Positions 37,194 through 64,000 of a stretch of DNA of 64,000 bases are shown piece by piece. Position numbers and translations under genes: made by a program. The notes under the pieces are model-generated. The model was not told the DNA's origin. It saw nothing but the letters and a program-made list of their open reading frames with translations, and ran no database searches. The DNA is taken from NCBI RefSeq assembly GCF_005298075.1, contig NZ_SZZH01000001.1:1922001-1986000 (forward strand). The letters are read 5' to 3'. Origin of the DNA: Nakamurella flava (GTDB lineage: Bacteria; Actinomycetota; Actinomycetes; Mycobacteriales; Nakamurellaceae). The first letter of the stretch is position 1, and every line of letters begins with the position of its first letter.

Positions 37194-38750
37194 TCAGACG
37201 ACCGGGACCGGGACGGCCGCCGGCGCCGGGGGCGGGACCGCGGCGGTGCCGGTCGCCCGGGGCAGCACGACCGTGATCGTCAGCCCACCGCCCGGGCTGT
37301 GACCCGCGAGCACCCGCCCGCCGTGGTTGCGGGCGATGGCGGCGACGATGGACAGCCCGAGTCCGGTCCCGCCCTTCTCCCGGGATCGGGACGGATCGGC
37401 CCGGTAGAAGCGGTCGAAAAGCCGGTCCAGGTCCTCATCCGCGACTCCGGGACCGTTGTCGCTGACCGAGACCGCGATCTCCCCCGCCCCCGGCAGCACC
37501 GTCACGGTGGCCGTGGTCCCGGGCGGGGTGTGGGTGCGGATGTTGCCCAGCAGGTTCGCGAACAGCTGGCTCAGCCGCAGCCGATCGCCCAGGACAAGCA
37601 CCCGCCCGGCCGCCGGGTCCCACCCGGACCAGCGCCACTGCCGCTCCGGGTCGATGACGGCGGCGTCCTCGACCACCCCGGTGAGCACCTCCACCAGGTC
37701 CACCCGTTCGTGGCTGGCGGTCTTCTCCGCGTCCGCCTGGATCAGCGTGAGCAGGTCCTGCACCAGCGCGTTCATCCGGGCGGCCTCGAACCCCATGCGT
37801 TCCATGGCCCGCTGCACGGCGGCCGGATCGCTGAGCATCCCGGCCCGGTACATGTCGGTGTAGCCCCGGACGGCCGCGACCGGGGTACGGAGCTCGTGAG
37901 AGGCGTCGGCGGCGAACTGCCGCAGTCGCTGCTCGCTGCGCTGCCGTTCGTCGAGCAGTTCGGAGATCCCGTCGAGCATGCCGTTGAACGCCACGCCGAG
38001 CCGGCCCACCTCGGTCGAGGGGTCGTCCTCCTCGACCCGGCGGTCCAGGTCGCCGTCGGCGATGTCGTCGGCGGCCCGGGCGATGGACTCCAGCGGCTTG
38101 AGTTCCCGTCGGATGATCAGCGACGAGGTCAGACCGAGCAGCAGCAACAGCGCCGCGGTGCCGAGCAGCTCGATGACGATCAGCCGGCCGACCGCGGTCT
38201 GCACGCCGGACGTCGACTGCCAGGCGACCAGCTCGGCCGGCAGGTTGGTGCTCTGGGCGGTGACGGTGCGGGCGACCGCCCGGTACTGGATGGTCGGGTC
38301 GTCCAGGTCGACGATCGTCTGCGGCACGCCCATCGCCTCGATGGCGTTGACGTCCGGGTTCGCCCAGGTGTCCTCGGATTCCGGCGGTTCGTGCTGGATG
38401 GAACCGTCCGCCGAGATGAGGGTGAAGCCGACCTCGCTGCCGGGCGAGCTGTCGCGGATCCGCTCCTGCAGGGCCTGGAACTGGAAGGTCTGCGGCAGGC
38501 TGCCCATCGCCCGGTTCAGCGTCGCGTCGAGGTTGGTGACCAGCACCGAGCGCAGCGCGATCGGCAACCCGACGTCCACCGACACCAGCGCGATCGCGGC
38601 CACCCCGACGACGAGCGCGATGAGCCGGGCCCGCAGCGTCCAACGGCGGGGGGCCGGGGCGGCGCCGTTGGTCAGCGGGCCCCGGGCGGCGGCGGTGCCG
38701 GTGACCGGGACCGCGGTCAGGGGCTCGGTGATCGGGCCGGAGGAGGCCAT
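37194..38750 (-). CDS. Two-component sensor histidine kinase
   Basis: The 518-aa kinase has two transmembrane helices (LIALVVGVAAIALVSVDVGL near 45 and LIVIELLGTAALLLLLGLTS near 200) around an extracytoplasmic sensor of about 125 aa, a HAMP domain, the H-box FAADASHELRTPVAAVRGY with the phospho-His, the N-box LFANLLGNIRTHTPPG, the DNGPG loop and GGTGLGLSIVAAIA. OmpR-class partner lies upstream. The signal is unknown. Confidence 0.95.
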   Translation of the reverse strand: MASSGPITEPLTAVPVTGTAAARGPLTNGAAPAPRRWTLRARLIALVVGVAAIALVSVDVGLPIALRSVLVTNLDATLNRAMGSLPQTFQFQALQERIRDSSPGSEVGFTLISADGSIQHEPPESEDTWANPDVNAIEAMGVPQTIVDLDDPTIQYRAVARTVTAQSTNLPAELVAWQSTSGVQTAVGRLIVIELLGTAALLLLLGLTSSLIIRRELKPLESIARAADDIADGDLDRRVEEDDPSTEVGRLGVAFNGMLDGISELLDERQRSEQRLRQFAADASHELRTPVAAVRGYTDMYRAGMLSDPAAVQRAMERMGFEAARMNALVQDLLTLIQADAEKTASHERVDLVEVLTGVVEDAAVIDPERQWRWSGWDPAAGRVLVLGDRLRLSQLFANLLGNIRTHTPPGTTATVTVLPGAGEIAVSVSDNGPGVADEDLDRLFDRFYRADPSRSREKGGTGLGLSIVAAIARNHGGRVLAGHSPGGGLTITVVLPRATGTAAVPPPAPAAVPVPVV

Positions 38751-38761
38751 GCGGTGACCCG

Positions 38762-39454
38762 TCAGTGCCGGGTGCCGCGCAGCACGTAACCGAAGCCGCG
38801 GTGCGTGTGGATCAGCGGTTCACCGGTCGCGTCGACCTTGCGGCGCAGGTAGGAGATGTAGGTGGCGACGACGGCGTCGTCCCCGTAGAAGTCGGTGCCC
38901 CAGACGGCGTCGAGCAGCTGCTGGCGGGACAGCACGACGTTGGCGTTGACCATCAGGTGCCGCAGCAGCTTGTACTCGGTGGGGGCCAGTTCGATCGGCT
39001 CGCCCGCGCGGGTGACCCGGTAGGTCTCCGGGTCGAGCTCCAGGTCGGCGACCCGCAGCACCCCGTCGGCGTCGTCGGCCGGCCGGACCCGACGGAGCAC
39101 GGCGGCGACCCGGGCGGCCAGCTCCTCCAGCCCGAACGGCTTGGTGACGTAGTCGTCGCCACCGGCGGTCAACCCGGCGATCTTGTCGGCCGGGGTGTCC
39201 CGTGCGGACAGGAACACGACGCCGGAGTCGACGCCGGCCGCCCGCACCCGCTTCATGACCTCCAGGCCGTCGAAGTCGGGCAGCATGACGTCGAGGATGA
39301 TCAGGTCGGGCGGCGAGTCGGTGGCCATCCGGACGGCCTCCCGGCCGGTCCCGGCGACCGACACCTGGTATCCCAGGAACCGCATCGACGTCGCGACGAT
39401 GTCCTGCAACGACGGCTCGTCGTCGACCACCAGCAACCGGGCCGTCCCCGTCAT
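38762..39454 (-). CDS. OmpR-family response regulator
   Basis: The 230-aa regulator has a receiver domain (VVDDEPSLQ, LIILDVMLPDFDG with phospho-Asp, SARD, VTKPFGLEEL with Lys) and a winged-helix DNA-binding domain (LAPTEYKLLRHLMVNANVVLSRQQLLDAVWG, DDAVVATYISYLRRKVD). It is co-transcribed with the downstream kinase (11-bp gap). Targets are not known. The start is ATG 39454. Confidence 0.95.
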   Translation of the reverse strand: MTGTARLLVVDDEPSLQDIVATSMRFLGYQVSVAGTGREAVRMATDSPPDLIILDVMLPDFDGLEVMKRVRAAGVDSGVVFLSARDTPADKIAGLTAGGDDYVTKPFGLEELAARVAAVLRRVRPADDADGVLRVADLELDPETYRVTRAGEPIELAPTEYKLLRHLMVNANVVLSRQQLLDAVWGTDFYGDDAVVATYISYLRRKVDATGEPLIHTHRGFGYVLRGTRH

Positions 39455-39663
39455 CTGAACTGTCCGTTCCCCTCGTTTCGGCCGGTCCGCGCCGGGGGCT
39501 GCGGTACTGCCCCACACGGAACCTGGCCGGACACCGCGCCCGGCCGGGCCTCGACGAGTGCACGCCCTGTGCACCCGCGCGGCGCAAGAATCCCATGAGA
39601 ACCGGCGGTGAAGCGGTCGCCGGGCCGCGACACCCGCATCCGGGTGCGCCGACGACGGCCGGG

Positions 39664-53447: not shown

Positions 53448-54665
53448 ATGCGCAGGAACTCAGGCCAGAACTCCGATATACCGAAGACTCTACGCCTCGG
53501 CGTCGTCACAGCCTTCCCGCCCGGCCGAAATAGCCTGAACGAGTTCGGCCTGCACCTGGTCCGTCACTTCTCCCGCCTCCCGGAGGTCGCCGAGGTGGTG
53601 GCCTACGTCGACGAGACCGACGCCGGGGCGCCCGACCCGCAGGCCAAGGTCGCCTTTCGGCCGTGCTGGCGCTTCAACCGCCTGACCAACCTGATCCGGA
53701 TCCCCCGCGAGATCCTGCGCACCCGACCCGACGCGGTGGTGATCAACCTGCAGTTCGCCACCTTCGGCGACCGCCGCCTGCCCGGGGCACTGGGGCTGCT
53801 CCTGCCGGCGGTGCTGCGGATGCTCCGGGTCCCCACCCTGCTGGTCCTGCACAACCTCGCCGACAACGTCGACATGCAGGACGCCGGGTTCGCGCGGTCG
53901 GCACTGGCCGCCCGGCTGATGCGGCTGGCCGGCCGCCTGCTCACCCGCGGCCTGCTGCTGGCCGACCTGGTGACCCTGACGATCCCCCGCTACGTCGAGT
54001 TCCTGCAGTCGAGCTACGGGGCGAAGAACGCGATCCTCGCACCGCACGGCAGCTTCGAGGACGTCGCCGTCCCCTCGTTCACCGTCCCGCCCGGGCGCCG
54101 GTCCATCATGGCGTTCGGCAAGTGGGGGACATACAAGACCGTCGACATGCTGGTCGACGCCTACAGCGAGCTGCTCGACCGCGGCTACGACGACCTGCGC
54201 CTGGTGCTCGCCGGCGCGGACAGCCCGAACTCGGCCGGCTACATGGCCGCTGCGGCCACCCGGTACGCCGACGTCCCGCACGTCGAGTTCCCCGGGTACG
54301 TCGCCGAGGCGGACGTCCCCGACCTCTTCACCCGGGCCGCGGTCGTCGCGTTTCCCTACACCTCGACCACCGGTAGCTCGGGGGTGCTGCACCAGGCCGG
54401 CGAGTACGGCCGCGCCGTCGTCCTGCCGCGGATCGGTGACCTCGTCGACATCATCGAGGAGGAGGGTTTCGCCGGGGTCTACTTCGCACCCGGGGACACC
54501 GCCAGCCTCGCCGGGGCCCTGGCCGAAGTCCTGGACGACCCGGCCAAGCGGGAGTCCCTCGGCCGCCGCAACTTCGCCGCCGCCGCCGGCGTGCCGATGT
54601 CCGAAGTGGTCGAGTGGCACCTCGCGCACATCGAACGGCTGCTGAAACGGCGGTCCCGACGATGA
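53448..54665 (+). CDS. GT4-family glycosyltransferase (first gene of the glycan operon)
   Basis: The 405-aa GT-B enzyme has an N-terminal acceptor domain (LGVVTAFPPGRNSLNEFGLHLV) and a C-terminal nucleotide-sugar domain (SIMAFGKWGTYKTVDMLVDAY, LVLAGADSPNS, VEFPGYVAEADVPDLF, VAFPYTSTTGSSGVLHQAGEYG with the E-x7-E like sugar-binding block). It probably adds a hexose to a lipid-linked or surface glycan. ATG 53448 is used, with a GGGGGAAGG stretch just before. The stop overlaps the flippase start as ATGA. Confidence 0.88.
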   Translation: MRRNSGQNSDIPKTLRLGVVTAFPPGRNSLNEFGLHLVRHFSRLPEVAEVVAYVDETDAGAPDPQAKVAFRPCWRFNRLTNLIRIPREILRTRPDAVVINLQFATFGDRRLPGALGLLLPAVLRMLRVPTLLVLHNLADNVDMQDAGFARSALAARLMRLAGRLLTRGLLLADLVTLTIPRYVEFLQSSYGAKNAILAPHGSFEDVAVPSFTVPPGRRSIMAFGKWGTYKTVDMLVDAYSELLDRGYDDLRLVLAGADSPNSAGYMAAAATRYADVPHVEFPGYVAEADVPDLFTRAAVVAFPYTSTTGSSGVLHQAGEYGRAVVLPRIGDLVDIIEEEGFAGVYFAPGDTASLAGALAEVLDDPAKRESLGRRNFAAAAGVPMSEVVEWHLAHIERLLKRRSRR

Positions 54666-55960
54666 CGACGTCCCGAGCCGAGCCGGTCGCTTCGGAGCGC
54701 CGTCTGGCGTCGGGCGGGGCGGTGCTCGCCGTGGCCATGATGGCCGCGAACGCAGCCAACTACCTGCTGAGCCTGTTCCTCGGCCGGGTGCTCACACCGG
54801 CGGAGTTCTCCGACGCCAACCTGATGGTGACGACGCTGTTCAGCCTGACGTCGATCGCGCTGTGCCTGCAGCTCGTCGCCTCCCGGTTCATCGCCCGCTG
54901 CGACGCCCTGGGCGTCCCGGGGGACGGCGACGCCCTGGCCCGCCGGTTGCGCCGCCTCGCCCTGCTCGCCGGTCTGGTGGCATCCGCCGTCCTGGCCGTG
55001 GGGTCGCCGGGCTGGTCGGCCCTGTTCCAGACCGCCTCGCCCTGGCCATTCGTGGTCCTCGCCGCGGGCGTGCCGTTCTGGCTGGTCCAGGCGGTCGAGC
55101 GGGGGGTGCTGCAGGCCCGGCTGCGCTTCGTCCCGCTCGCGGTGTCCTTCGTCGTGGAGGCCGGCACGCGGATCGGGCTCGGCGTGCTGCTGGTCTGGGC
55201 CGGCGGCGGCGTCCCGGGCGCGACCGCCGCACTGTCCGCGTCGTTCGTGGTCACCTTCGTCGTCGTCCGGATCGCCGCGCGGGTGCGCGGCGCGCGCCCC
55301 ACCGGCGCGGGTGTCAGCCCCGCGGAGGTGCGCGCCTACGCCGGGTTCGTGTCGGTGCTGCTGATCGGCCAGATCATCGCGAACAACAGCGACATCTTCG
55401 TGGCCAAGGCTTTCCTGTCCCCCACCGACGCCGGGGTCTTCGCCGCGGTCGCCCTCATCGGCCGGGCCGTCTTCTTCCTGACCTGGTCGGTGGTGACGGT
55501 GGTCTTCCCGGTGGCCGCGCGGCAGCAGGCGGCCGGTCGCGGGATGCCGGGCCTGCTGGTCAAGGCCACGGCCGCGGTCGTCGCCATCGGGCTGCTGTGC
55601 ACGGCGGCCGCCTGGTGGGTCGGCGGACCGGTGCTGGAGACCGTCCTCGGCCCGGCCTACGCCGGCCTGTCCGGGGCGATGGCCGCCTACGCCGGGGCGA
55701 CCACGCTCTTCGCGATCGGCAACCTCGTCGCCGCCCACCGCCTGTCGCAGTCCCGGGTCACCGAGTCGTGGCTGCTGCTGGGCGCCGCCCTGTTGCAGGT
55801 GGTGCTGCTGCTGGTGTGGCACCGGGACATGGCCGATCTCATCGCCGTCCAGGCGGTCGCCATGGGGTGCCTGGTCCTGGTGCTGGCGGTCCGTGCCCTC
55901 CCGACGCTGCCGTACCTGTCCCGTTCGTCCACCGGTGCCCGTCAGGAGGTCACCCCATGA
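54662..55960 (+). CDS. Polysaccharide flippase-like membrane protein (Wzx/MviN-type fold)
   Basis: The 432-aa protein has about 12 hydrophobic helices, starting GGAVLAVAMMAANAANYLLSLFLGRVLTPAEF, a form typical of the polysaccharide transport (PST/MOP) superfamily: FLGRxLxxxEF, LVASRFIAR, and IANNSDIFVAKAFLSPTDAGVFAAV. It should move a lipid-linked glycan unit across the membrane. The operon position between two glycosyltransferases supports this. Joints are ATGA overlaps on both sides (54662-54665 and 55957-55960). Confidence 0.88.
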   Translation: MTTSRAEPVASERRLASGGAVLAVAMMAANAANYLLSLFLGRVLTPAEFSDANLMVTTLFSLTSIALCLQLVASRFIARCDALGVPGDGDALARRLRRLALLAGLVASAVLAVGSPGWSALFQTASPWPFVVLAAGVPFWLVQAVERGVLQARLRFVPLAVSFVVEAGTRIGLGVLLVWAGGGVPGATAALSASFVVTFVVVRIAARVRGARPTGAGVSPAEVRAYAGFVSVLLIGQIIANNSDIFVAKAFLSPTDAGVFAAVALIGRAVFFLTWSVVTVVFPVAARQQAAGRGMPGLLVKATAAVVAIGLLCTAAAWWVGGPVLETVLGPAYAGLSGAMAAYAGATTLFAIGNLVAAHRLSQSRVTESWLLLGAALLQVVLLLVWHRDMADLIAVQAVAMGCLVLVLAVRALPTLPYLSRSSTGARQEVTP

Positions 55961-56799
55961 CCGGAGCACCGTCGGCCTACCGGGCCTACCGGGACTGGGT
56001 CACCACACCGATCACCGGCCCACCCGCGGTCTCCGTGGTGATCCCGGCCTACAACGAGGAGTGGCGCATCCTGCCGACGATCGGCGCGATCGCCACGCAC
56101 ATGAGCGCGCGTGGTGGGCCGTGGGAGCTGATCGTCGCCGACGACGGCTCCACCGACGCCACGCTGTCCCTCGTCCGCGACCTGCGCTTCGCCAACCTGC
56201 GCCTGCTGGTCGCCGACCGCAACGGCGGCAAGGGCAGCGCGGTCCGGCGCGGCATGCTGGCCGCCCGGGGCGACCTCGTCCTGTTCGCCGACGCCGACCA
56301 GTCCACCCCGATCGAGCAGTTCGACCGGCTGGCCGCGATGGTCGGCGACGGCTTCGACGTCGTGGTCGGGTCGCGCAAGGCCGACGGCTCGCAGGTGAGC
56401 GGGCGGACCCTCACGCGGCGGATGCTCAGCGGGGGTCTGCAGACCCTGGTGCGCGGCATGGGGATCTCGGTCCGCGACACCCAGTGCGGCTTCAAGCTCT
56501 TCACCCGGGACGCGGCCCGTGCGCTGTTCTCCGTCCAACTGGTCGACGGTTTCTCCTTCGACCTCGAGGTGCTCTACCTCGCGCGTCGGCGCGGCTATCG
56601 GGTGGCCGAGATCCCGGTCGAGTGGATCGACGCCCCGGGGTCCACCGTCGACGCCGCCCGGGTGAGCCTGCAGTTCGTCCGCGACCTCGCCCGGGTCCGC
56701 CTCAACGACGTCCGCGGCAGGTACTCGTCCACCCGCGCCGGCCACCGCGACCAGCCGGTGCCCACGTCCGTCCCGTCCGTCGGAGGTCAGTCGACATGA
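55957..56799 (+). CDS. GT2 glycosyltransferase (dolichyl-phosphate hexose synthase-like)
   Basis: The 280-aa GT-A enzyme has VSVVIPAYNEEWRILPTI, LIVADDGSTDATLSLV, the DxD-type ADADQSTP (residues about 115-122), CGFKLFTRDAA and SFDLEVLYLARRRGYRVAEIPV. This is the pattern of Alg5/DPM-like enzymes that load a sugar onto polyprenyl phosphate, which fits the downstream GT-C protein that would use such a lipid-linked donor. No membrane segments are seen. Overlaps the STAS gene as ATGA. Confidence 0.9.
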   Translation: MTGAPSAYRAYRDWVTTPITGPPAVSVVIPAYNEEWRILPTIGAIATHMSARGGPWELIVADDGSTDATLSLVRDLRFANLRLLVADRNGGKGSAVRRGMLAARGDLVLFADADQSTPIEQFDRLAAMVGDGFDVVVGSRKADGSQVSGRTLTRRMLSGGLQTLVRGMGISVRDTQCGFKLFTRDAARALFSVQLVDGFSFDLEVLYLARRRGYRVAEIPVEWIDAPGSTVDAARVSLQFVRDLARVRLNDVRGRYSSTRAGHRDQPVPTSVPSVGGQST

Positions 56800-57119
56800 T
56801 CATCAGCACCTCACTCGATCCGGACCGGCGCGTCGTCCGGCTGGTCGGCCGCTTCGACGCCCACGAGTCGGCGACGTTCCGGGACACCGTGCACCCCCTG
56901 ATCACCCCGCAGACGCCCGTGCTGTCGGTCGACCTCGCGCAGGTCGCCTTCGTGGACTCCACGGCCCTGTCCGAACTGGTGCGCCTGCAGAAGGCCGCCC
57001 AGAAGGCCGGCGGCGAAGTGGTGCTGGTCGATCCGTCCGACCCCGTGCGGGTCATCCTGGAGATCACCGAGTTGGCACCGCTGTTCACCACCGAGCGCAC
57101 GGCGGCGGAGTCCCGGTGA
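56796..57119 (+). CDS. STAS-domain anti-sigma factor antagonist (first of two)
   Basis: The 107-aa protein is a complete STAS domain with VDLAQVAFVDSTALSELVRLQKAA, whose DST holds the serine phosphorylated by RsbW-type kinases in partner-switching systems. It is coupled to the phosphatase gene by GTGA (57116-57119). The likely role is release or capture of a partner by phosphorylation state. It lies within the glycan operon, not beside a sigma factor. Confidence 0.92.
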   Translation: MIISTSLDPDRRVVRLVGRFDAHESATFRDTVHPLITPQTPVLSVDLAQVAFVDSTALSELVRLQKAAQKAGGEVVLVDPSDPVRVILEITELAPLFTTERTAAESR

Positions 57120-58486
57120 CCACCACCGCCCCCGGCCTGGGACCACCCGGACTGGTCGAGCCGGCCGCACCGGCCACCGCCGAGGCGGCCGTCGAGGCGC
57201 TCCTCGGGCTCGCCCTCCCGCACGCCACGACGGCCGCGGGCCGGGCCGCCGGGGTCGTCCGCGCCGCGCTGGGCGAGTTCGCGTCCGTCCAGACCGCGCT
57301 GACCGAGGCACTGGTCGCCAGCCAGGACCGGCTGCTGGCCATGAAGACGTTCACCCAGGTCAACCTGCGCGACGTCGCCGGCCGGGAGGCCGTCGCCCGG
57401 CTGCTCGGCCGGGCCCTGACGCTGACCGGCGCGGCCACCGTCCTGCTGCTGGAGGAGGACAGCGTGGCCACCGCCGTCGGCGAGGTCGCCGATCTGGACG
57501 GGCTGGCCGACCTGGCGCGCGCGGCGATCCGTGCCGCGCCCGACCGCGTGCTGCGGACCGTCGCCGGTGACAGCGCGATCATCGGCAGCCTCGACGTGGA
57601 CACCTCGAGCGCCTGGCACCTGGCCTACTTCCGCCCGGCCGGCCGTCGGTTCGCGACCTCCGACCTGCCGCTCGTCGAATCGATCGGCGCCGCGCTGGGC
57701 ATCGTCCTGGCCTTCATCGAACTGCACCGCCGCGAGCTGGCCCGGGCGGCGGTCGCCCGCGAACACGAGGTGGCCTCCGCGCTGGCGCAGTCGGCGATCT
57801 CCGCCGTGCCGCCGGTCTCGGCCCGCGTCGACATCTTCGCGCGCACCGCTCCGGCGTCGCTGACCGGCGGGGACTTCTACGTCTTCGAGCGGACCGGCGG
57901 GTCGATCTGGTTCGCGGTCGGGGACGTGGCCGGCAAGGGCCTGCCCGCGGCGATCTTCATGACCCGGGCGGTGGCCGCGTGCCGGGTCGCGTTCCTGGCC
58001 CACCGGGACGAGGCGGTGACCGCGGCCTTCACCCGCGTCCAGGACGAACTGTTCGACCACCTCGAGGACGCCGGGCTGTTCCTCACCCTGGTGCTCGGGG
58101 TCGTCCGCGAGGACTGCGGCACCGTGTCGCTGGTCAACGCGGGGCACTCCCCCGTCCTGCTCGTGAAGGACGGCACCCCGCAGGTGGTGCGGGCGTCGGT
58201 GCCGCCCATGGGCATCGTGCGGCGGACCCCCGTGCCGACGACGGCCACCCTGTCCGGCGACGACTGCCTCGTCGTCGGGACGGACGGCCTGGTCGAACAG
58301 GAGGACCCGGCCGACACGATGTTCGGATACGAACGGTTCGGCCAGCTGTGCCACCGCCACCACACCCGGCCGGCCCCCGAAATCGGGGAGGACATCTTCG
58401 CCGAGGTCACCCGGTTCGCCGCCGGCCGCCCGGCCTCCGACGACTCCACCCTGGTCGTCCTCAAGCGCCTCGCGGCCGCGGCATGA
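57116..58486 (+). CDS. SpoIIE-type PP2C protein phosphatase with N-terminal sensor
   Basis: The 456-aa protein has a helical start, a GAF-like region (residues about 75-210; TLTGAATVLLLEEDSV, FYRPAG-like), a linking coil (IELHRRELARAAVAREHEVASALAQSA), and a PP2C/SpoIIE domain: DIFARTAPASLTGGDFYVF, FAVGDVAGKGLPAAIFMTR, VNAGHSPVLLV, LVVGTDGLVEQ with metal aspartates, and SDDSTLVVLKR. It should dephosphorylate the STAS proteins of this operon. GTG start overlaps the STAS stop. Confidence 0.93.
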   Translation: MTTTAPGLGPPGLVEPAAPATAEAAVEALLGLALPHATTAAGRAAGVVRAALGEFASVQTALTEALVASQDRLLAMKTFTQVNLRDVAGREAVARLLGRALTLTGAATVLLLEEDSVATAVGEVADLDGLADLARAAIRAAPDRVLRTVAGDSAIIGSLDVDTSSAWHLAYFRPAGRRFATSDLPLVESIGAALGIVLAFIELHRRELARAAVAREHEVASALAQSAISAVPPVSARVDIFARTAPASLTGGDFYVFERTGGSIWFAVGDVAGKGLPAAIFMTRAVAACRVAFLAHRDEAVTAAFTRVQDELFDHLEDAGLFLTLVLGVVREDCGTVSLVNAGHSPVLLVKDGTPQVVRASVPPMGIVRRTPVPTTATLSGDDCLVVGTDGLVEQEDPADTMFGYERFGQLCHRHHTRPAPEIGEDIFAEVTRFAAGRPASDDSTLVVLKRLAAAA

Positions 58487-58905
58487 GCGGCCCCACGACG
58501 GCCACGCTCGGGCTGGCCCCGACGGAGTTGGCCCTGCGGGCCATCGGGCCGTGGCTGGCGCGGTCCGTCGGCGGTCTCGATCCGGCGACGGCCCGGTCCC
58601 TGCTGCCCCGGATGGAGCTGGCCGTCCACGAGACGTGCATGAACGTCGTCCACCACGCCGCCCTGTCCGACGGCGAGCAGATCGAACTGGCCCTCACTCT
58701 CGACCCGGACCACCTGACCGTCTGGGTGCGGGACTCCGGGGCCGCGTTCGACCAGGCGGGCGTGCCCGAACCGGCCGGCGGGCAGCTGCGCGAGCGCGGT
58801 TACGGCGTCAAGATCGCCCGCTCGCTCGTCGACGAACTCACCTACCGCCGACAGGGATCGCGCAACGAACTGGCCCTGCGCATCGACCTGGAAGGACCCC
58901 CGTGA
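58483..58905 (+). CDS. RsbW-like ATP-binding serine kinase (anti-sigma factor type)
   Basis: The 140-aa GHKL ATPase (HATPase_c_2) has the N-box MELAVHETCMNVVHHA, VWVRDSGAAF (G1-like) and RERGYGVKIARSLVDELTYRR (G2-like). It would phosphorylate STAS partners and/or bind an output partner. Overlaps: ATGA with the phosphatase, GTGA with the second STAS gene. The substrate STAS protein could be either neighbour. Confidence 0.92.
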   Translation: MSGPTTATLGLAPTELALRAIGPWLARSVGGLDPATARSLLPRMELAVHETCMNVVHHAALSDGEQIELALTLDPDHLTVWVRDSGAAFDQAGVPEPAGGQLRERGYGVKIARSLVDELTYRRQGSRNELALRIDLEGPP

Positions 58906-59276
58906 CCGCCGCCGACACCCGCCCCGACCTGGACGGACCCCGCCTGCGGTGGTCGGTCACCCATGCCTCACCGGACCACGCCACCGTCGCCTTCGCCGGC
59001 CGGTTCGACGCCGTGGAGGCGCTGGCCGCCCGCACACGCCTCGCCCAGGACGACGTGGTCGGCCGCGCGCACCTGGTGCTGGACCTGCACGCGGTGACCT
59101 TCCTGGACAGCGCGGGGCTCGCCGTCCTGGTCCGCGCCCGGCGCGACCGGCAACGGGACGGCCGCACGATCGCCCTGGTCCGCCCGGCGTCGGAGGACGC
59201 GATGCGGGTCCTGCGGCTGACCCAGTTCGACCAGATCTTCACCCTGGTCGACCGCTGTCCCCCGGGCGGCCCGTGA
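58902..59276 (+). CDS. STAS-domain anti-sigma factor antagonist (second of two)
   Basis: The 124-aa STAS protein has VLDLHAVTFLDSAGLAVLVRARR; DSAG carries the probable phospho-serine. It differs clearly from the first STAS protein and has about 20 extra N-terminal residues, so the two are not recent duplicates. The pair may give the kinase two competing partners. GTG start; its TGA overlaps the receiver ATG by one base (TGATG). Confidence 0.92.
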   Translation: MTAADTRPDLDGPRLRWSVTHASPDHATVAFAGRFDAVEALAARTRLAQDDVVGRAHLVLDLHAVTFLDSAGLAVLVRARRDRQRDGRTIALVRPASEDAMRVLRLTQFDQIFTLVDRCPPGGP

Positions 59277-59650
59277 TGTCGCGGCGCGCCCTGGTGGTCG
59301 ACGACGACGCCGTGTCCCGGCTCGTCCTCGGCCACATGCTGCGGGGGCTGCAGTGGACGGTGGAGCAGGCGGTGGACGCGCCGGATGCCGCCTCCCACCT
59401 GGACAACGCCGAGTTCGACCTCGTCATCTCCGACTTCCTCCTCCCGTCCGGAACCGGCGTCGACGTGCTGCGGACCGTCGAACGACGCCACCCGGGAACC
59501 GCGTTCGTGCTGGTCACCGGGTTCATCGAGCATTCGACCCTGCCGCCGGAGACCACGGCCCGCCTCTCGGGCCAACTGACCAAGCCGGTCAGCTCCGACA
59601 CCCTGCGGACCGTGCTGGACGAGCTGTTCCCGGCGGCTGGGACCCCATGA
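59276..59650 (+). CDS. Single-domain response regulator (receiver only)
   Basis: The 124-aa CheY-like protein has ALVVDDDAVSRLVLGHML, LVISDFLLPSGTGVDVLRTV (phospho-Asp), FVLVTGF (Thr) and LSGQLTKPVSSDTL (Lys). No output domain. Together with the following receiver-Hpt protein it makes a local His-Asp relay pair; no histidine kinase is seen in the operon. Confidence 0.92.
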   Translation: MSRRALVVDDDAVSRLVLGHMLRGLQWTVEQAVDAPDAASHLDNAEFDLVISDFLLPSGTGVDVLRTVERRHPGTAFVLVTGFIEHSTLPPETTARLSGQLTKPVSSDTLRTVLDELFPAAGTP

Positions 59651-60414
59651 CCGGGGCCGCCCCGTCCCCGTCCACGACCACCCTGCGGGTGCTCGTCGCC
59701 GAGGACGACGAGACGCTGCGGTTCCTGTCCCGGCGGTTCATCGAAAAGCTGGGGCACACGGTGACCACCGTCCCCAACGGCCGGGACGCCGTCGACGCCG
59801 CCCTGACCGGCGGGTTCGACGTGGTGCTGATGGACGTGAACATGCCGCTGCTGGACGGACCGCAGGCCACCCGGATGATCCGCACCGCCGGCGACCGCAT
59901 CCGGCAGCCGCACATCATCGCCCTGACGGCCGCAGTGAACGCCGGGGTCCGTCAGGCGTGCCGGGCGGCCGGCATGGACGCCTTCGTGACCAAACCGTTC
60001 CGTTCCGCGGACATCCGCCAGGCACTGACCGGAATCGGGACCACACCAGCCGTCACCGGGATCGCCCCGGCTGCTGACACCCCGTCGTCAGAGCCCTTCG
60101 CCGGGCTGGAACAGTTCGAACCGGCCGTCCGGGCCGAGATCCTGCGGACCTTCCGGCAGCGCGGCGGAGACGACGCCACGCAGCTCGCGCAGGCGCTCGA
60201 CGACGGCGACACAGACCGGGCCCGGTTCCTGGCCCACCGGCTGCGGGGAGCGAGCGCGGCCGTCGGCGCCACCGGGCTCGCCGAACTCTGCCGGTCGATC
60301 GAGACCGCACCGGCCGCCCCCGTCCCCGCCGGTCGGGTGGCCGCGCTCCGGACCGCGTTCGCCTCTGTCGAGAGCCACATCGAGACGTTCGAGCGTGGTC
60401 ACCCTTCTCCGTAG
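59647..60414 (+). CDS. Receiver-Hpt phosphorelay protein
   Basis: The 255-aa protein has a receiver domain (VLVAEDDETLRFLSR, VVLMDVNMPLLDGPQATRMIR, TAAVNAG, DAFVTKPFRSADI) and a C-terminal histidine phosphotransfer domain (residues about 160-250; RARFLAHRLRGASAAVGATGLAEL, phospho-His in AHRLRGAS). Such modules pass phosphate between a hybrid kinase and another receiver, here probably the preceding one. Its 3' end overlaps the GT-C gene by 20 bp. Confidence 0.9.
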   Translation: MTGAAPSPSTTTLRVLVAEDDETLRFLSRRFIEKLGHTVTTVPNGRDAVDAALTGGFDVVLMDVNMPLLDGPQATRMIRTAGDRIRQPHIIALTAAVNAGVRQACRAAGMDAFVTKPFRSADIRQALTGIGTTPAVTGIAPAADTPSSEPFAGLEQFEPAVRAEILRTFRQRGGDDATQLAQALDDGDTDRARFLAHRLRGASAAVGATGLAELCRSIETAPAAPVPAGRVAALRTAFASVESHIETFERGHPSP

Positions 60415-63400
60415 CCGCCGGTCGCGGCCGCCGGCCGACCCACCGCCGACGCCACCGCCCGGCGCCGCCCACCCGACCGGATCCGAGCCGCCGCCGCGGC
60501 CCGCCGGGGTCGCCGGGCTGCGCCCACGGACCATCGCCCTGGTGGTGGCGGCGGTCTACTACGTCGGCGCACTGATCGTCTTCCGGGACGTCGTGCGGGC
60601 CATCCCGTCGGTCCTGCGCGGTGACGCGGTCATCGCCGGTGACGAATTGGTCCCGTTCTTCAACTGGCACACCCAATTGCTGGACCAGGCGGCCGGGGAA
60701 TTCAACGACCTGGTCAACGGCTACGAGTTCCGGGTCCGGTATGCCTTCCTGACGACCTGGCTGCGGTACTACCAGGTGCTGCCGTTCGCGATCCTGCTCG
60801 TCATTCCCAGCCTGTTCCTGGTCACCTATCTGACGGTGGCGAAATTCGCCGACCGCGTCTTCACCTCGCTGTCCTCCCAGGCCATCTACCTCGCGACGTT
60901 CTTTCCGGTCACCCTGATCTATCTGATCATGGTCTATTCCAAGATCACCCACTTCTACACGCTGGTCCTCGGGCTGGTGCTGATGACCATCTCGGCCCTG
61001 TGGATGCTGTATGCCCTGCTCTTCGCCGGGCGGAAGTGGAAACGCTGGATGGTGCTGGCCAGCGTCGCCACCCTGTTCAACCCGGCCATCCACTACCTCA
61101 TCCTGTTCAGCCTGTTCTTCGCCATCACGGCGGTGACCCTGCTGGTGGGCGAGATCGGCCACTGGCTCCGGCGGGGCGGCCCGGCCTGGCTGCGCACCCT
61201 GCCGCGCCGGGTCAAGGGGGCGACCACCGAGCCGGGGCGGTGGCGGCGGCTGCGCGCCTGGTGGCGCATGTTCACCGGGACGACGACCGGCCGGATCGCC
61301 GTGGCCGGCGTGCTGTACGCGGCGATCACCCTGATCCCCTACGCGTTGTTCGTCAAGTACGTGGCACTGGCCGGGGTCACCAACCTCACCGACACCGTGC
61401 CCGGGGACTACTACTTCATCCGCGACGCGTCGGTGTCCTGGTTGCACGAGCTGTCCTGGGACCTGGCCGGCATCACCGACAAGATCCTCTACGGCGACTA
61501 TCTCGCCAAGGTGCCGCGCTACCCCAACGCGATCTACACCGTGCTGCTGTTCGTACCGCTGGTGGTGCCGGCCGTCCGGCGCCGCCTCTTCCCGACCCGG
61601 GCCCACCGGCAACTGCGGGGCGTCATCTTCGTGGCCGTGGTCTTCGCGCTGTGGGCCACCATCGGCTACGCCGAGCCGCTGTGGTTCCCGACCTTCCACC
61701 GCACCCTGGCCGACCTGGCCATCGCGGCCAACGACAGCCATTCGACGATCGGCAACCTGGTCGTTACGGTCGCCGGGACCATCGTCCAGATCCTGCGGTT
61801 CCCCCACCGGTTCCAGCTGATCCTGTTCATGCTCGCCCCGCTGGTCATGTCGTTGACGCTGGCCTACCTCATCGACCTGGTGAGCGGCCGGTGGCTGGGT
61901 CCGGCCCGCCCCCGACGGAATCCGCCGCCGACGGACGGGCCGGTGGCACAAGCCCGCCCCCGCCGAATACCGGGCCGGGCCGCACGGACGGCCGCGCGCA
62001 TGGTCAGCGGCGAGTGGTTCGTCAAACTCCTGGCCACCGCGTGCGTGGGCATGGTGTTCTTCACGCCGTTCTTCTCCAACGACGTCTACCGCCAGGTCTT
62101 CTCCTCCGGCAACATGGCCGGGTTCCTGTCCCCTTTCCCGCTGGCCGACCTCAAACAGGTCAAGCAGGCACTGAACGAGCTGCCGCCGGGAAAGACGGTG
62201 GTCCTGCCGCCGACCGAGACTGCGAAGCTGGTCAGCGACAGCAACGGGGTGGACCACAAATTCATCGACAAGTTCTTCATCTACTACCTGGACAAACCGA
62301 GTTACTACTACGGACTCACCGGGGACGTGAAGAACAAGTTCGAGTTCTTCCTCATCCTGCGGGGGCTGTACTACCAGCAGGACTGGTGGCTCAACGTCGC
62401 CCGCGACATCGGTGTCCGGTACATCGTGGTCAATCGCAAGATCCACTCCAACGAGGGGGTCGGGGCCGAGTACCTGCCCAAGGTGGAGAGCTACGTCGAA
62501 CCCGCGCTGGCCCGGCTCACGCCCGACGTGCAATTGCGGATGAGCAACGAGAGCTACGCCCTGTACGAGATCGTGGATCAACCCCCACCGGACCGCCCGG
62601 TGCTGCTGGTCGACTCCAGCTGGCAGACGTATCTGGACCTGGTGTTCAACCGGCGGAACCTGTCCCGCTGCTACTCCTTCGAGTACACGCCGTACGCCGA
62701 CGTCGACCGGGTCATCAGCGACCGGCAGACCATGCTGCTCACCGACGACCCCCACACCTCGGCCCTGAACCTCTACCTGATGCAACATCCGAAGGCGTTC
62801 TCCGGGCCGGACTCCCGGATGTTCGCCTTCAACCCCGATGTGGTGGCGTCGAACTACTACCTGTCCCCGATGTTCCGGGCGTTCCTGCTGTTCTCCATCA
62901 CCAAGTGGAACCGCATGGACATGATCACCCCGGGCGTCTTCGGCACGTTACGCGGATCGTTCATCGGCATCCCCCGTGCGACCGAGATCAGCGTGCCGGT
63001 CAAGGTCGCCGAACCCGGCCGCTACCACGTGCTCATGCGCACCGCCGATACCGCCAACCGGCTGCACATCACGGCCCCCAGCCTCGGGTACGACCAGACC
63101 CCCGAACTGCGGTCGCCCGCGGCGAACGTCAAGTTCTTTCCGACCGACCAGGTGTACAACCCGGACCGGGTGGCGGTCGACACCTCCGGCATGACCGTCG
63201 AGGACCTCGAGGCCAGGATCCCCGATCAACTGGTCGCGGTGAACTCCGGCTACTCCTACCAGGACCTCGGCGTCGTCGACGCCAAGGCCGGGACCCACAC
63301 CTTCACCATCGACAAGCTGGACAGCAATCCGATGCTGTTCGAGGGCATGGTCCTGGTACCGGAGGCCGACTACCAGGCCCTGGCCCTGCCTGCGACCGTC

Positions 63401-63802
63401 ACCCCGATCACCGACCCGAACACGTTGGGCTGTTCGGAGCGCACGACCAGCAGCGGCGGCAAGGACGGCTACGTCGACCCCGCCGCCAACCCGGCCCACG
63501 CCGACCTCACCCAGGACGAGCTGCTCAACCTGGCCGCCGCCGACGTGCAGGACCTGGAGCCCCCGGAGGGCGGGACCCTCGACTCCAAATGGCTGGGGGT
63601 CGGCCTGACCCTGGCCCTGCTCATCGTCAGCGGCCTGCTCGTGCGCTGGCGCGCCCGGTGGTCGCCCACCGTTGACGGCCCCGATCCCGACGCCCCGGCG
63701 GGTCCGGATCCCCCGGACCCGACCCTCACCGACCCGGAACCACCCGATCGCCACGACGACCGGGGGCGCGAGCCACCCCGGACGAAGGAGATGCCGTCAT
63801 GA
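60395..63802 (+). CDS. Giant GT-C-like membrane glycosyltransferase / glycan assembly protein
   Basis: The 1135-aa protein has a Pro-rich cytoplasmic start, about 11 membrane helices in the first 560 residues, a large extracytoplasmic domain (about 560-1080), and a last helix (WLGVGLTLALLIVSGLLV) with a Pro/Asp-rich tail. The first external loop holds GDAVIAGDELVPFFNWHTQL, an acidic motif like that of GT-C transferases such as the arabinofuranosyltransferases. I infer a polyprenyl-phosphate-sugar-using transferase acting outside the cell. The exact family is unsure. GTG 60395 overlaps the previous gene by 20 bp; ATGA joins it to the next. Confidence 0.72.
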   Translation: MVTLLRSRRSRPPADPPPTPPPGAAHPTGSEPPPRPAGVAGLRPRTIALVVAAVYYVGALIVFRDVVRAIPSVLRGDAVIAGDELVPFFNWHTQLLDQAAGEFNDLVNGYEFRVRYAFLTTWLRYYQVLPFAILLVIPSLFLVTYLTVAKFADRVFTSLSSQAIYLATFFPVTLIYLIMVYSKITHFYTLVLGLVLMTISALWMLYALLFAGRKWKRWMVLASVATLFNPAIHYLILFSLFFAITAVTLLVGEIGHWLRRGGPAWLRTLPRRVKGATTEPGRWRRLRAWWRMFTGTTTGRIAVAGVLYAAITLIPYALFVKYVALAGVTNLTDTVPGDYYFIRDASVSWLHELSWDLAGITDKILYGDYLAKVPRYPNAIYTVLLFVPLVVPAVRRRLFPTRAHRQLRGVIFVAVVFALWATIGYAEPLWFPTFHRTLADLAIAANDSHSTIGNLVVTVAGTIVQILRFPHRFQLILFMLAPLVMSLTLAYLIDLVSGRWLGPARPRRNPPPTDGPVAQARPRRIPGRAARTAARMVSGEWFVKLLATACVGMVFFTPFFSNDVYRQVFSSGNMAGFLSPFPLADLKQVKQALNELPPGKTVVLPPTETAKLVSDSNGVDHKFIDKFFIYYLDKPSYYYGLTGDVKNKFEFFLILRGLYYQQDWWLNVARDIGVRYIVVNRKIHSNEGVGAEYLPKVESYVEPALARLTPDVQLRMSNESYALYEIVDQPPPDRPVLLVDSSWQTYLDLVFNRRNLSRCYSFEYTPYADVDRVISDRQTMLLTDDPHTSALNLYLMQHPKAFSGPDSRMFAFNPDVVASNYYLSPMFRAFLLFSITKWNRMDMITPGVFGTLRGSFIGIPRATEISVPVKVAEPGRYHVLMRTADTANRLHITAPSLGYDQTPELRSPAANVKFFPTDQVYNPDRVAVDTSGMTVEDLEARIPDQLVAVNSGYSYQDLGVVDAKAGTHTFTIDKLDSNPMLFEGMVLVPEADYQALALPATVTPITDPNTLGCSERTTSSGGKDGYVDPAANPAHADLTQDELLNLAAADVQDLEPPEGGTLDSKWLGVGLTLALLIVSGLLVRWRARWSPTVDGPDPDAPAGPDPPDPTLTDPEPPDRHDDRGREPPRTKEMPS

Positions 63803-64000
63803 CCGCACCCGCCCGCCGCATCGTCTTCCTCGGCACCCACGGGCAGTACAACATCGGCGACGAGCTGCTGCTCGAGACGTTCCTGACCGAGCTGGGCCCG
63901 CAGCACCGGTACGTCGTCAACAGCTACGACCCGGCCTTCACCCGGGCCCAGCTGGCGGAACGGTTCGCCGTGACCGTCATCGACACCGCGACCGAACGTG
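63799..64000 (+). CDS. Polysaccharide pyruvyl transferase family protein, cut by window edge
   Basis: The visible 67 codons, MTAPARRIVFLGTHGQYNIGDELLLETFLTEL (in parts) and RYVVNSYDPAFTRAQ, match the N-terminus of CsaB/WcaK-type pyruvyl transferases, whose first strand reads GxxGxxNxGDExLL. It would add a ketal pyruvate to a glycan, giving it a negative charge. ATG 63799 overlaps the previous stop as ATGA. The rest is outside the window, so the operon continues. Confidence 0.75.
   Translation, partial: MTAPARRIVFLGTHGQYNIGDELLLETFLTELGPQHRYVVNSYDPAFTRAQLAERFAVTVIDTATER

Follow-up and report, generated by a model that had tools for sequence, protein, structure and literature searches.

The window analyzed here, a 64,000-nucleotide stretch of Nakamurella flava DNA (NZ_SZZH01000001.1, assembly GCF_005298075.1, positions 1,922,001 to 1,986,000), carries from position 53448 an operon of 11 plus-strand genes in which glycan-assembly genes surround a set of partner-switching and phosphorelay genes. 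The relay and the partner switch probably set the phosphorylation state of STAS proteins, which in turn would control the glycan machinery, most likely the flippase, at the post-translational level. It is very likely that the output is the glycan machinery and not a sigma factor, and contact between STAS and the flippase is plausible, if a little short of an even call. Across the related loci the constant element is STAS, not RsbW or a DNA-binding regulator. The genes of the operon are as follows (aa, amino acids).

53448..54665, +, GT4 glycosyltransferase, 405 aa (PF13692, 1.1e-18)
54662..55960, +, MOP-type oligosaccharide flippase, 432 aa from ATG 54662 (PF01943 and PF13440, just below cut-off)
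55957..56799, +, GT2 glycosyltransferase, 280 aa (PF00535, 2.9e-26)
56796..57119, +, STAS1, 107 aa, predicted phospho-acceptor Ser55 in the pair D54-S55 (PF01740, 5.2e-17; TIGR00377 above cut-off)
57116..58486, +, SpoIIE-type PP2C phosphatase, 456 aa (PF07228, 2e-37)
58483..58905, +, RsbW-type serine kinase, 140 aa (PF13581, 6.1e-20)
58902..59276, +, STAS2, 124 aa, predicted phospho-acceptor Ser70 in a DSAGL motif (PF01740, 1e-12)
59273..59650, +, stand-alone receiver, 124-125 aa, D53 (PF00072, 1.1e-16)
59647..60414, +, receiver-Hpt protein, 255 aa, D63 and H197 (PF00072, 1.3e-23; PF01627, 1.4e-14)
60395..63802, +, GT-C-like membrane protein, 1135 aa, with a C-terminal carbohydrate-binding-like beta-sandwich (predicted model resembles GT-C enzymes)
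63799..64000, +, polysaccharide pyruvyl transferase, 411 aa, cut by the window edge (PF04230, 3.2e-28 for the whole gene)

Organization of the operon

Gene reading and Pfam matches agree with the 11 genes, strand, and order given in an initial annotation of this DNA, and the joint coordinates bear out its overlaps of 1 to 4 nucleotides and one of 20. Overlaps of 4 nucleotides join GT4 to the flippase, the flippase to GT2, GT2 to STAS1, STAS1 to PP2C, PP2C to RsbW, RsbW to STAS2, the receiver to the receiver-Hpt gene, and GT-C to the pyruvyl transferase. The STAS2/receiver overlap is 4 nucleotides with a GTG start at 59273 or 1 nucleotide with an ATG start at 59276, and the receiver-Hpt/GT-C overlap is 20 nucleotides (GTG start at 60395), with an identical joint in loci L011, L037, and L050. 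The pyruvyl transferase ends at 65034 (extended coordinates) and is followed by a convergent acyltransferase. Rfam at gathering thresholds gives no match in 40000-64000.

As in SigB/SigF-type modules, the cassette has a D-S phospho-acceptor in STAS and intact motifs of both an RsbW-type HATPase kinase (E50/N54, D84, and G106) and a SpoIIE-type phosphatase (metal-site motifs at D253, D270, D390, and D442/443), which we take to be the active-site motifs of these enzymes. The closest solved structure to the kinase is RsbW 6m36 (E 4.3e-4). The N-terminal part of the phosphatase has no Pfam match, and GAF matches are found in distant relatives only, with none in the window copy. The stand-alone receiver has no further Pfam match up to E 1 and so is without an output domain. 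The flippase falls just under the Pfam cut-offs (25.5 versus 28.2 bits for PF01943, and 22.9 versus 23 bits for PF13440). GT2 resembles PgfS and undecaprenyl- and dolichyl-phosphate sugar transferases in NCBIfam, every match being below its cut-off, and is perhaps a polyprenyl-phosphate-sugar synthase.

Conservation of the cassette with glycan genes

The comparison covers 50 loci, namely, the window, 47 loci found by a search with the GT-C family in named species genomes, and 2 loci from the same genus; the 47 include Microbacteriaceae, Actinokineospora, Actinophytocola, Rhodococcus, Mycolicibacterium, Acidimicrobiia, and Chloroflexota, and gene matches within loci rest on hidden Markov models (HMMs) built from called genes. 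GT4 is matched over more than 250 aa in 37 loci, the window included, with 73-81% identity in the nearest relatives. STAS1 is present in 35 of the 50; each of the remaining 15 is truncated by a contig end on the flank that, judged by eye, carries STAS1 in relatives. Both PP2C and RsbW accompany STAS1 in 26 of these 35 loci, PP2C alone in one (L041, which is cut), and neither enzyme in eight, two of which lie on short contigs (L046 and L053). Gene order differs by lineage: STAS2 is missing from L014, L015, L016, and L030, both enzymes are lacking in some lineages, and a single open frame covers PP2C and RsbW in five loci of Chloroflexota (L033, L034, L038, L039, and L044; Pfam domains were read on L033). 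The distance matrices of STAS1, PP2C, and RsbW follow those of GT4, the flippase, and GT2 (Mantel r of 0.89-0.97, with 0 of 999 permutations as high, for the 25 loci with all six genes). A genome-neighborhood search, proposed in the initial annotation, thus finds the arrangement to be a conserved unit in Actinomycetota and Chloroflexota, and recurrence of the gene set in many genomes of these two phyla rules out a chance juxtaposition.

Closer to N. flava, the cassette is sporadic. A PP2C match at E 1e-30 occurs in only 3 of 41 genomes (its own, 16 others of the genus, and 24 of the order), and the island is therefore accessory. The same-genus genomes G034 and G038 have an eight-gene core of GT4, flippase, GT2, STAS1, PP2C, RsbW, STAS2, and receiver, plus a hybrid kinase with Hpt, and the 20-kb stretches around these cores have no GT-C or pyruvyl transferase of the operon's families. 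A different giant membrane protein takes the place of GT-C there (L123 and L124); as a candidate GT-C relative it was rejected, with no recognizable match to the GT-C profile and an hhalign probability of 0.4 per cent. The core is thus retained without GT-C and pyruvyl transferase, and the switch therefore travels with the flippase and glycosyltransferase core.

STAS serines and the switch enzymes

Ser follows the conserved Asp of STAS1 in every one of the 26 loci that have both PP2C and RsbW, and also in L041, which is cut after PP2C. The residue at this place is never Ser in the eight enzyme-less loci, where it is Ala (L014), Arg (L021, L022, L026, L049, and L052), or Glu (L046 and L053). 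The STAS2 serine behaves alike, being present in 21 of 21 loci with the enzymes and in L027 (cut) and replaced in 7 of 7 loci without them. The association has Fisher values of 4e-7 for STAS1 and 5e-6 for STAS2, in tests that ignore relatedness. Seven other STAS1 positions (R19, D21, H23, D54, L61, R85, and E89) are identical in all 35 loci, kinase present or not. As STAS is kept where the enzymes are absent and these positions do not change, it appears to have a job in the glycan locus beyond that of a kinase substrate. D21 lies in a motif corresponding, at the level of the motif and without alignment, to that of Asp20 and Asp22 in SypA of the Vibrio fischeri syp locus; these residues are described at the modeled interface with SypE, and changing them impairs SypA function, stability being assumed (PMC10120452).

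Sigma factors and GGDEF proteins

The lack of a sigma factor noted in the initial annotation extends well beyond the window. A genome-wide scan for sigma-70 region 2 gives 23 matches, the nearest on the contig being at 1,749,324 (some 172 kb to the left of the window) and 2,213,998 (some 228 kb to its right), so that no sigma-70-family gene lies within about 170 kb, and the operon has no adjacent cognate SigB/F-family sigma of the kind usual in SigB/SigF-type modules. The 39 kb to the right, mostly read as open frames, contain no sigma homologue and no match to the signaling models. Four sigma queries, which find each other as controls, match nothing in 5431 open frames and genes of the 50 loci or in 56 genes called in the right part of the window and its flank; distant extracytoplasmic function-type sigma factors may escape these queries, though not the region 2 scan. 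The extension, the scan, and the queries together rule out a sigma factor just past the right edge, and the output partner once suspected there is not found, with only the pyruvyl transferase, the convergent acyltransferase, and no sigma in the next 39 kb.

Elsewhere, the N. flava genome has three SigB/F/G-like genes (207.7, 196.5, and 184.7 bits, all below the family cut-off of 234.35). These are short, at L112:5053-5772 (-), L113:5058-5708 (+), and L114:5213-5836 (+), and the first two adjoin GAF-ANTAR genes. Only two proteins exceed 60 bits for HATPase_c_2, the operon's RsbW and a protein on contig C6 (L115:4127-6052) that combines PAS, SpoIIE, HATPase_c_2, and STAS as a one-piece partner switch.

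Among 26 carrier genomes, the SigB/F/G cut-off is passed in nine, and one more scores over 150 bits, a threshold chosen after the scores were known; the remaining 16 have best matches of 130-144 bits, to long sigma frames of housekeeping type. In 13 of the 16 the locus has PP2C, RsbW, and STAS1 (L015 without STAS2), with no SigB/F/G-like sigma in the genome above the housekeeping background. Because several of the carrier assemblies are drafts or bins, absences among them are not absolute. Six of the 13 are Microbacteriaceae, and in five of these the cassette RsbW (69.7-72.8 bits) scores far above the next match (38-42 bits), its position coinciding with the locus coordinates; in the sixth, L015, another RsbW-type match scores about as high. 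Chloroflexota carriers have further strong RsbW-type proteins. GGDEF is without a match in four of the 13 genomes, including the two tested genomes with a flippase fusion (L028 and L032), and two more have only matches below the cut-off. The window's own genome has nine GGDEF matches, none of them in the operon by Pfam, which thus lacks the cyclase of Sia/Hsb-type systems.

Fusions of flippases to RsbW-like domains

Flippases fused to RsbW-like HATPase_c_2 domains are encoded in three loci (L027, L028, and L032) and in 31 database proteins (Chloroflexota). In a fold search the L032 fusion, an orthologue of the window flippase, folds like WzxE and so has the MOP fold; the membrane part filled the lists, so the search does not cover the N-terminal HATPase part. 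By sequence search the second repeat of the fusion protein matches RsbW 6m36 weakly, at E 0.015. P0126, a 935-aa receiver-RsbW-flippase protein, was set aside as evidence, as its C-terminal part and receiver/HATPase junction read like a frameshift. No STAS-glycosyltransferase fusion occurs in the loci examined, and no search was aimed at such fusions. Fusions of other kinds are a 791-aa flippase-pyruvyl transferase by HMMs (L022:7602-9977) and a 647-aa GT2-GT4 protein by Pfam (L026:13163-15103).

A phosphorelay with a missing kinase

The phosphorelay, at first taken to be complete, is not: the window copy is without the histidine-kinase half seen in L037, where one gene codes for an 833-aa HisKA-HATPase-REC-Hpt protein whose residues 574-832 are matched by the window's 255-aa protein at 49%. 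At the equivalent position, L007, L011, and L050 have genes of 843-855 aa that match the L037 hybrid-kinase model (L037 represents the group in the domain scan), and L013 has Hpt only, in 168 aa. The relay gene is thus eroded from the full kinase-receiver-Hpt form (L037) through receiver-Hpt (window) to Hpt alone (L013), in three neighbors on the GT-C tree, and the retention of Hpt to the last is consistent with a trans-acting kinase as the source of the relay. In syp, an Hpt-bearing hybrid kinase feeds a receiver; the HisKA-HATPase-REC-Hpt form is also present in L022, L026, L123, and L124, with the window having receiver-Hpt alone. One histidine kinase of the N. flava genome (G000:C3:757473; PAS-HisKA-HATPase, preceded by two receiver-like genes and matching at 39% across the kinase core) is only a candidate for the trans-acting kinase.

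H-NOX (HNOB) genes lie beside histidine-kinase-like genes at L018:14143-14673 (-), L026:17860-18399 (+), and L022:2323-2856 (+), the HisKA match in L022 being just below cut-off, which suggests nitric-oxide or redox input in these lineages. In a second Microbacterium-type arrangement (L014:17600-18163 and L015:17839-18384) the receiver carries an N-terminal helix-turn-helix (PF01381), and this branch may also act on transcription. A gene of the endonuclease/exonuclease/phosphatase family (PF03372) follows the receiver gene in L007:36-1031 (-) and L123:7042-8022 (-).

Proposed mechanism and alternative outputs

A histidine-kinase signal, from a kinase acting in trans in this genome, would enter through the Hpt domain and pass to the stand-alone receiver, which would shift the relative activity of the SpoIIE phosphatase and RsbW-type kinase. 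Their balance would set the phosphorylation of STAS1 Ser55 and STAS2 Ser70, a step suggested by the intact active-site motifs and by the lack of these serines in enzyme-less loci. Once dephosphorylated, the STAS proteins would act post-translationally on the glycan machinery and not on a sigma factor; the flippase may be contacted by the STAS surface that also binds RsbW, so that the signal would gate flipping of the lipid-linked glycan. What the data show directly is gene content, motifs, linkage, the serine/enzyme association, the fusions, and carriers lacking sigma and GGDEF matches; each of these interactions, and its sign, we infer. More tentatively, and on balance somewhat doubtfully, the flippase may be the client of the switch, in the textbook place of the sigma factor, with RsbW-like domains (in trans or fused) and STAS forming a phosphorylation-gated export latch. 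Direct control of glycan synthesis or export at the protein level was one of two outputs first suggested for the cassette. It is favored by linkage, co-inheritance, and the flippase-RsbW fusions, which tie the cassette to the glycan genes, and by the 13 genomes with no SigB/F/G-like sigma above background, which speak against sigma as the general target; a partner past the edge is dropped.

Several observations weigh against this proposal. Mantel correlations reflect co-inheritance and not contact. The serine/enzyme trait changes only four times on the GT-C tree (a quick method, with L053 left out), and the GT4 tree, with only six long loci scored as enzyme-less, gives two independent pairs, both in the expected direction but too few for significance (sign test p 0.5). 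The flippase fusions come only from Chloroflexota-type loci, in a search whose length limits favored long proteins, and their HATPase repeats look split, with a G2-type Gly in repeat 1 and the N-box and G1-type residues in repeat 2; the fused domains may therefore be docking or structural rather than kinase domains. No receiver fusion is found among the 120 matches listed of 150 PP2C homologues. Two of the 13 genomes without a SigB/F/G-like match, those of L039 and L043, have 252-codon sigma frames (126 and 116 bits) that are possibly another alternative sigma, and N. flava itself has SigF-like sigma factors without RsbW neighbors.

This last point bears on classical sigma control in trans, where RsbW would be the anti-sigma factor of a SigF-like sigma and its place in the operon would serve co-expression only. 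The three SigB/F/G-like sigmas of the genome have no adjoining RsbW gene, and one of the two strong HATPase_c_2 proteins is that of the operon, but the PAS-SpoIIE-HATPase_c_2-STAS protein could serve these sigmas, 16 of the 26 carriers (13 with the enzymes and STAS1 in the locus) have nothing above 150 bits, and STAS persists in loci without RsbW; we consider such control very unlikely. Slimmer still is the chance that the switch controls a diguanylate cyclase elsewhere, with cyclic di-GMP then controlling glycan synthesis. SiaABCD and HptB-HsbR-HsbA-HsbD of Pseudomonas are described as acting through a cyclase (PMC7647112), the best NCBIfam match of the PP2C is SiaA (36.2 versus 700 bits, far below cut-off), N. 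flava has its GGDEF matches, and EAL and HD genes lie beside L026; against this stand the operon without a GGDEF gene and the carriers with only sub-cut-off GGDEF matches or with none, the last including the two tested genomes with flippase fusions.

Outputs within or on the operon itself compete more closely. STAS might act on a glycosyltransferase (GT2, GT4, or GT-C) and not on the flippase, which is unlikely but a serious contender: STAS1 lies next to GT2 in the window, to GT4 in loci of Chloroflexota and of Mycolicibacterium, and to GT-C in L014, and the cyanobacterial all4160 is described as a glycosyltransferase with an N-terminal STAS domain (PMC8256260). Fusions nevertheless join RsbW-like domains to flippases, with no STAS-glycosyltransferase counterpart in the loci examined, and GT-C is replaceable. 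Transcriptional output through the receiver, in which the signaling genes would regulate the operon promoter through a regulator elsewhere and STAS would act indirectly, is quite unlikely. Receivers with a DNA-binding domain occur in Mycolicibacterium (L022) and in the L014/L015 group, and the available descriptions of syp include a transcriptional branch, SypG; the operon's receiver, however, has no output domain, and the element common to the loci is not a DNA-binding regulator.

Relation to described systems

The RsbU/RsbW/RsbV-SigB and SpoIIE/SpoIIAB/SpoIIAA-SigF systems use the same kinase, phosphatase, and STAS families, with the same expected chemistry; unlike them, the present unit has no sigma factor, and its constant part is STAS rather than RsbW. 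The Hsb system of Pseudomonas aeruginosa is fed by an Hpt protein, as the name HptB implies. Both it and SiaABCD are, in the cited account, partner switches with a diguanylate cyclase as a non-sigma client (PMC7647112), and the operon is a partner switch from which the cyclase is absent.

A described precedent, which the initial annotation did not recognize, is the syp locus of Vibrio fischeri. There, SypE (kinase-receiver-phosphatase) sets the phosphorylation of SypA, the downstream part, a relay runs via SypF, and HnoX inhibits HahK (PMC4517449, PMC12369376, PMC10120452). In the strain tested, the Hpt of SypF is enough by itself to complement a deletion of sypF (PMC12369376), and some Vibrio species have a SypA orthologue without sypE (PMC4517449), a parallel to the enzyme-less loci. 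Partner-switch genes lie inside a polysaccharide locus in the operon as in syp; in both, as far as syp is covered in these sources, a STAS with a known or predicted phospho-serine, an RsbW-type kinase, a PP2C, a receiver, and an Hpt domain are found in or around that locus, with STAS downstream in syp and probably so in the operon, and the H-NOX genes beside several relatives' loci recall HnoX-HahK. The differences are that kinase, receiver, and phosphatase are separate genes here instead of a tripartite SypE (the L033 PP2C-RsbW fusion has no receiver), that no SypG-type regulator is present, neither receiver protein having a DNA-binding domain by Pfam, and that there are two STAS proteins, other phyla, and flippase-RsbW fusions. 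By analogy, the operon's system may work like syp, yet we do not class it as syp because the tripartite SypE and SypG are lacking; the comparison is one of domain content.

HmpV, a STAS protein of Nostoc punctiforme, is reported to be dephosphorylated by HmpU and phosphorylated by HmpW (PMC8256260, PMC10120452). This hormogonium motility and polysaccharide locus resembles the operon's switch in having STAS with an opposing kinase and phosphatase, and it differs, as described, in having no flippase/glycosyltransferase/GT-C operon around it and no relay. No description of the layout of the operon was found in term searches of the open-license literature. As far as we can tell, its division into separate genes with a pair of STAS proteins, its occurrence in two phyla, the loci that have STAS but no enzymes, and the flippase-RsbW fusions are new. 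The targets of SypA and HmpV-type STAS proteins are stated to be unknown in these reports (PMC4517449, PMC10120452, PMC8256260); with STAS kept where the enzymes are absent and an RsbW-like domain fused to the flippase in certain lineages, the question becomes whether STAS binds and gates the flippase. If so, partner switching would be a direct post-translational valve on surface-glycan export, and the flippase or export machinery would be the missing target of SypA-type STAS proteins.

The GT-C protein and neighboring genes

The giant protein between the relay genes and the pyruvyl transferase has no Pfam or NCBIfam match, and a search of solved structures with its profile gives no relative in sequence up to E 1. 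Its predicted model has the multi-helix membrane fold of GT-C enzymes, and by this fold it is a putative GT-C glycosyltransferase; the fold lists also contain insecticidal-crystal-protein and carbohydrate-binding-module rows for the C-terminal beta-sandwich, a likeness of fold only.

In the same-genus genome G034, the region L125:9641-15460 has a PP2C relative beside an acyltransferase-beta-lactamase-like gene; an RsbW-type gene lies some 4 kb away, and the glycan models find no match. This may be another partner switch, one connected with modification of the envelope. Left of the operon, window positions 37254-39508 (-) contain a histidine-kinase match in a 541-codon frame and a receiver match. 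To the right of the window, further sugar-nucleotide and glycan-like frames lie at 72527-88003 (extended coordinates; a GT2 model match at 72527, the rest by eye), and the operon may border a larger glycan island on that side.

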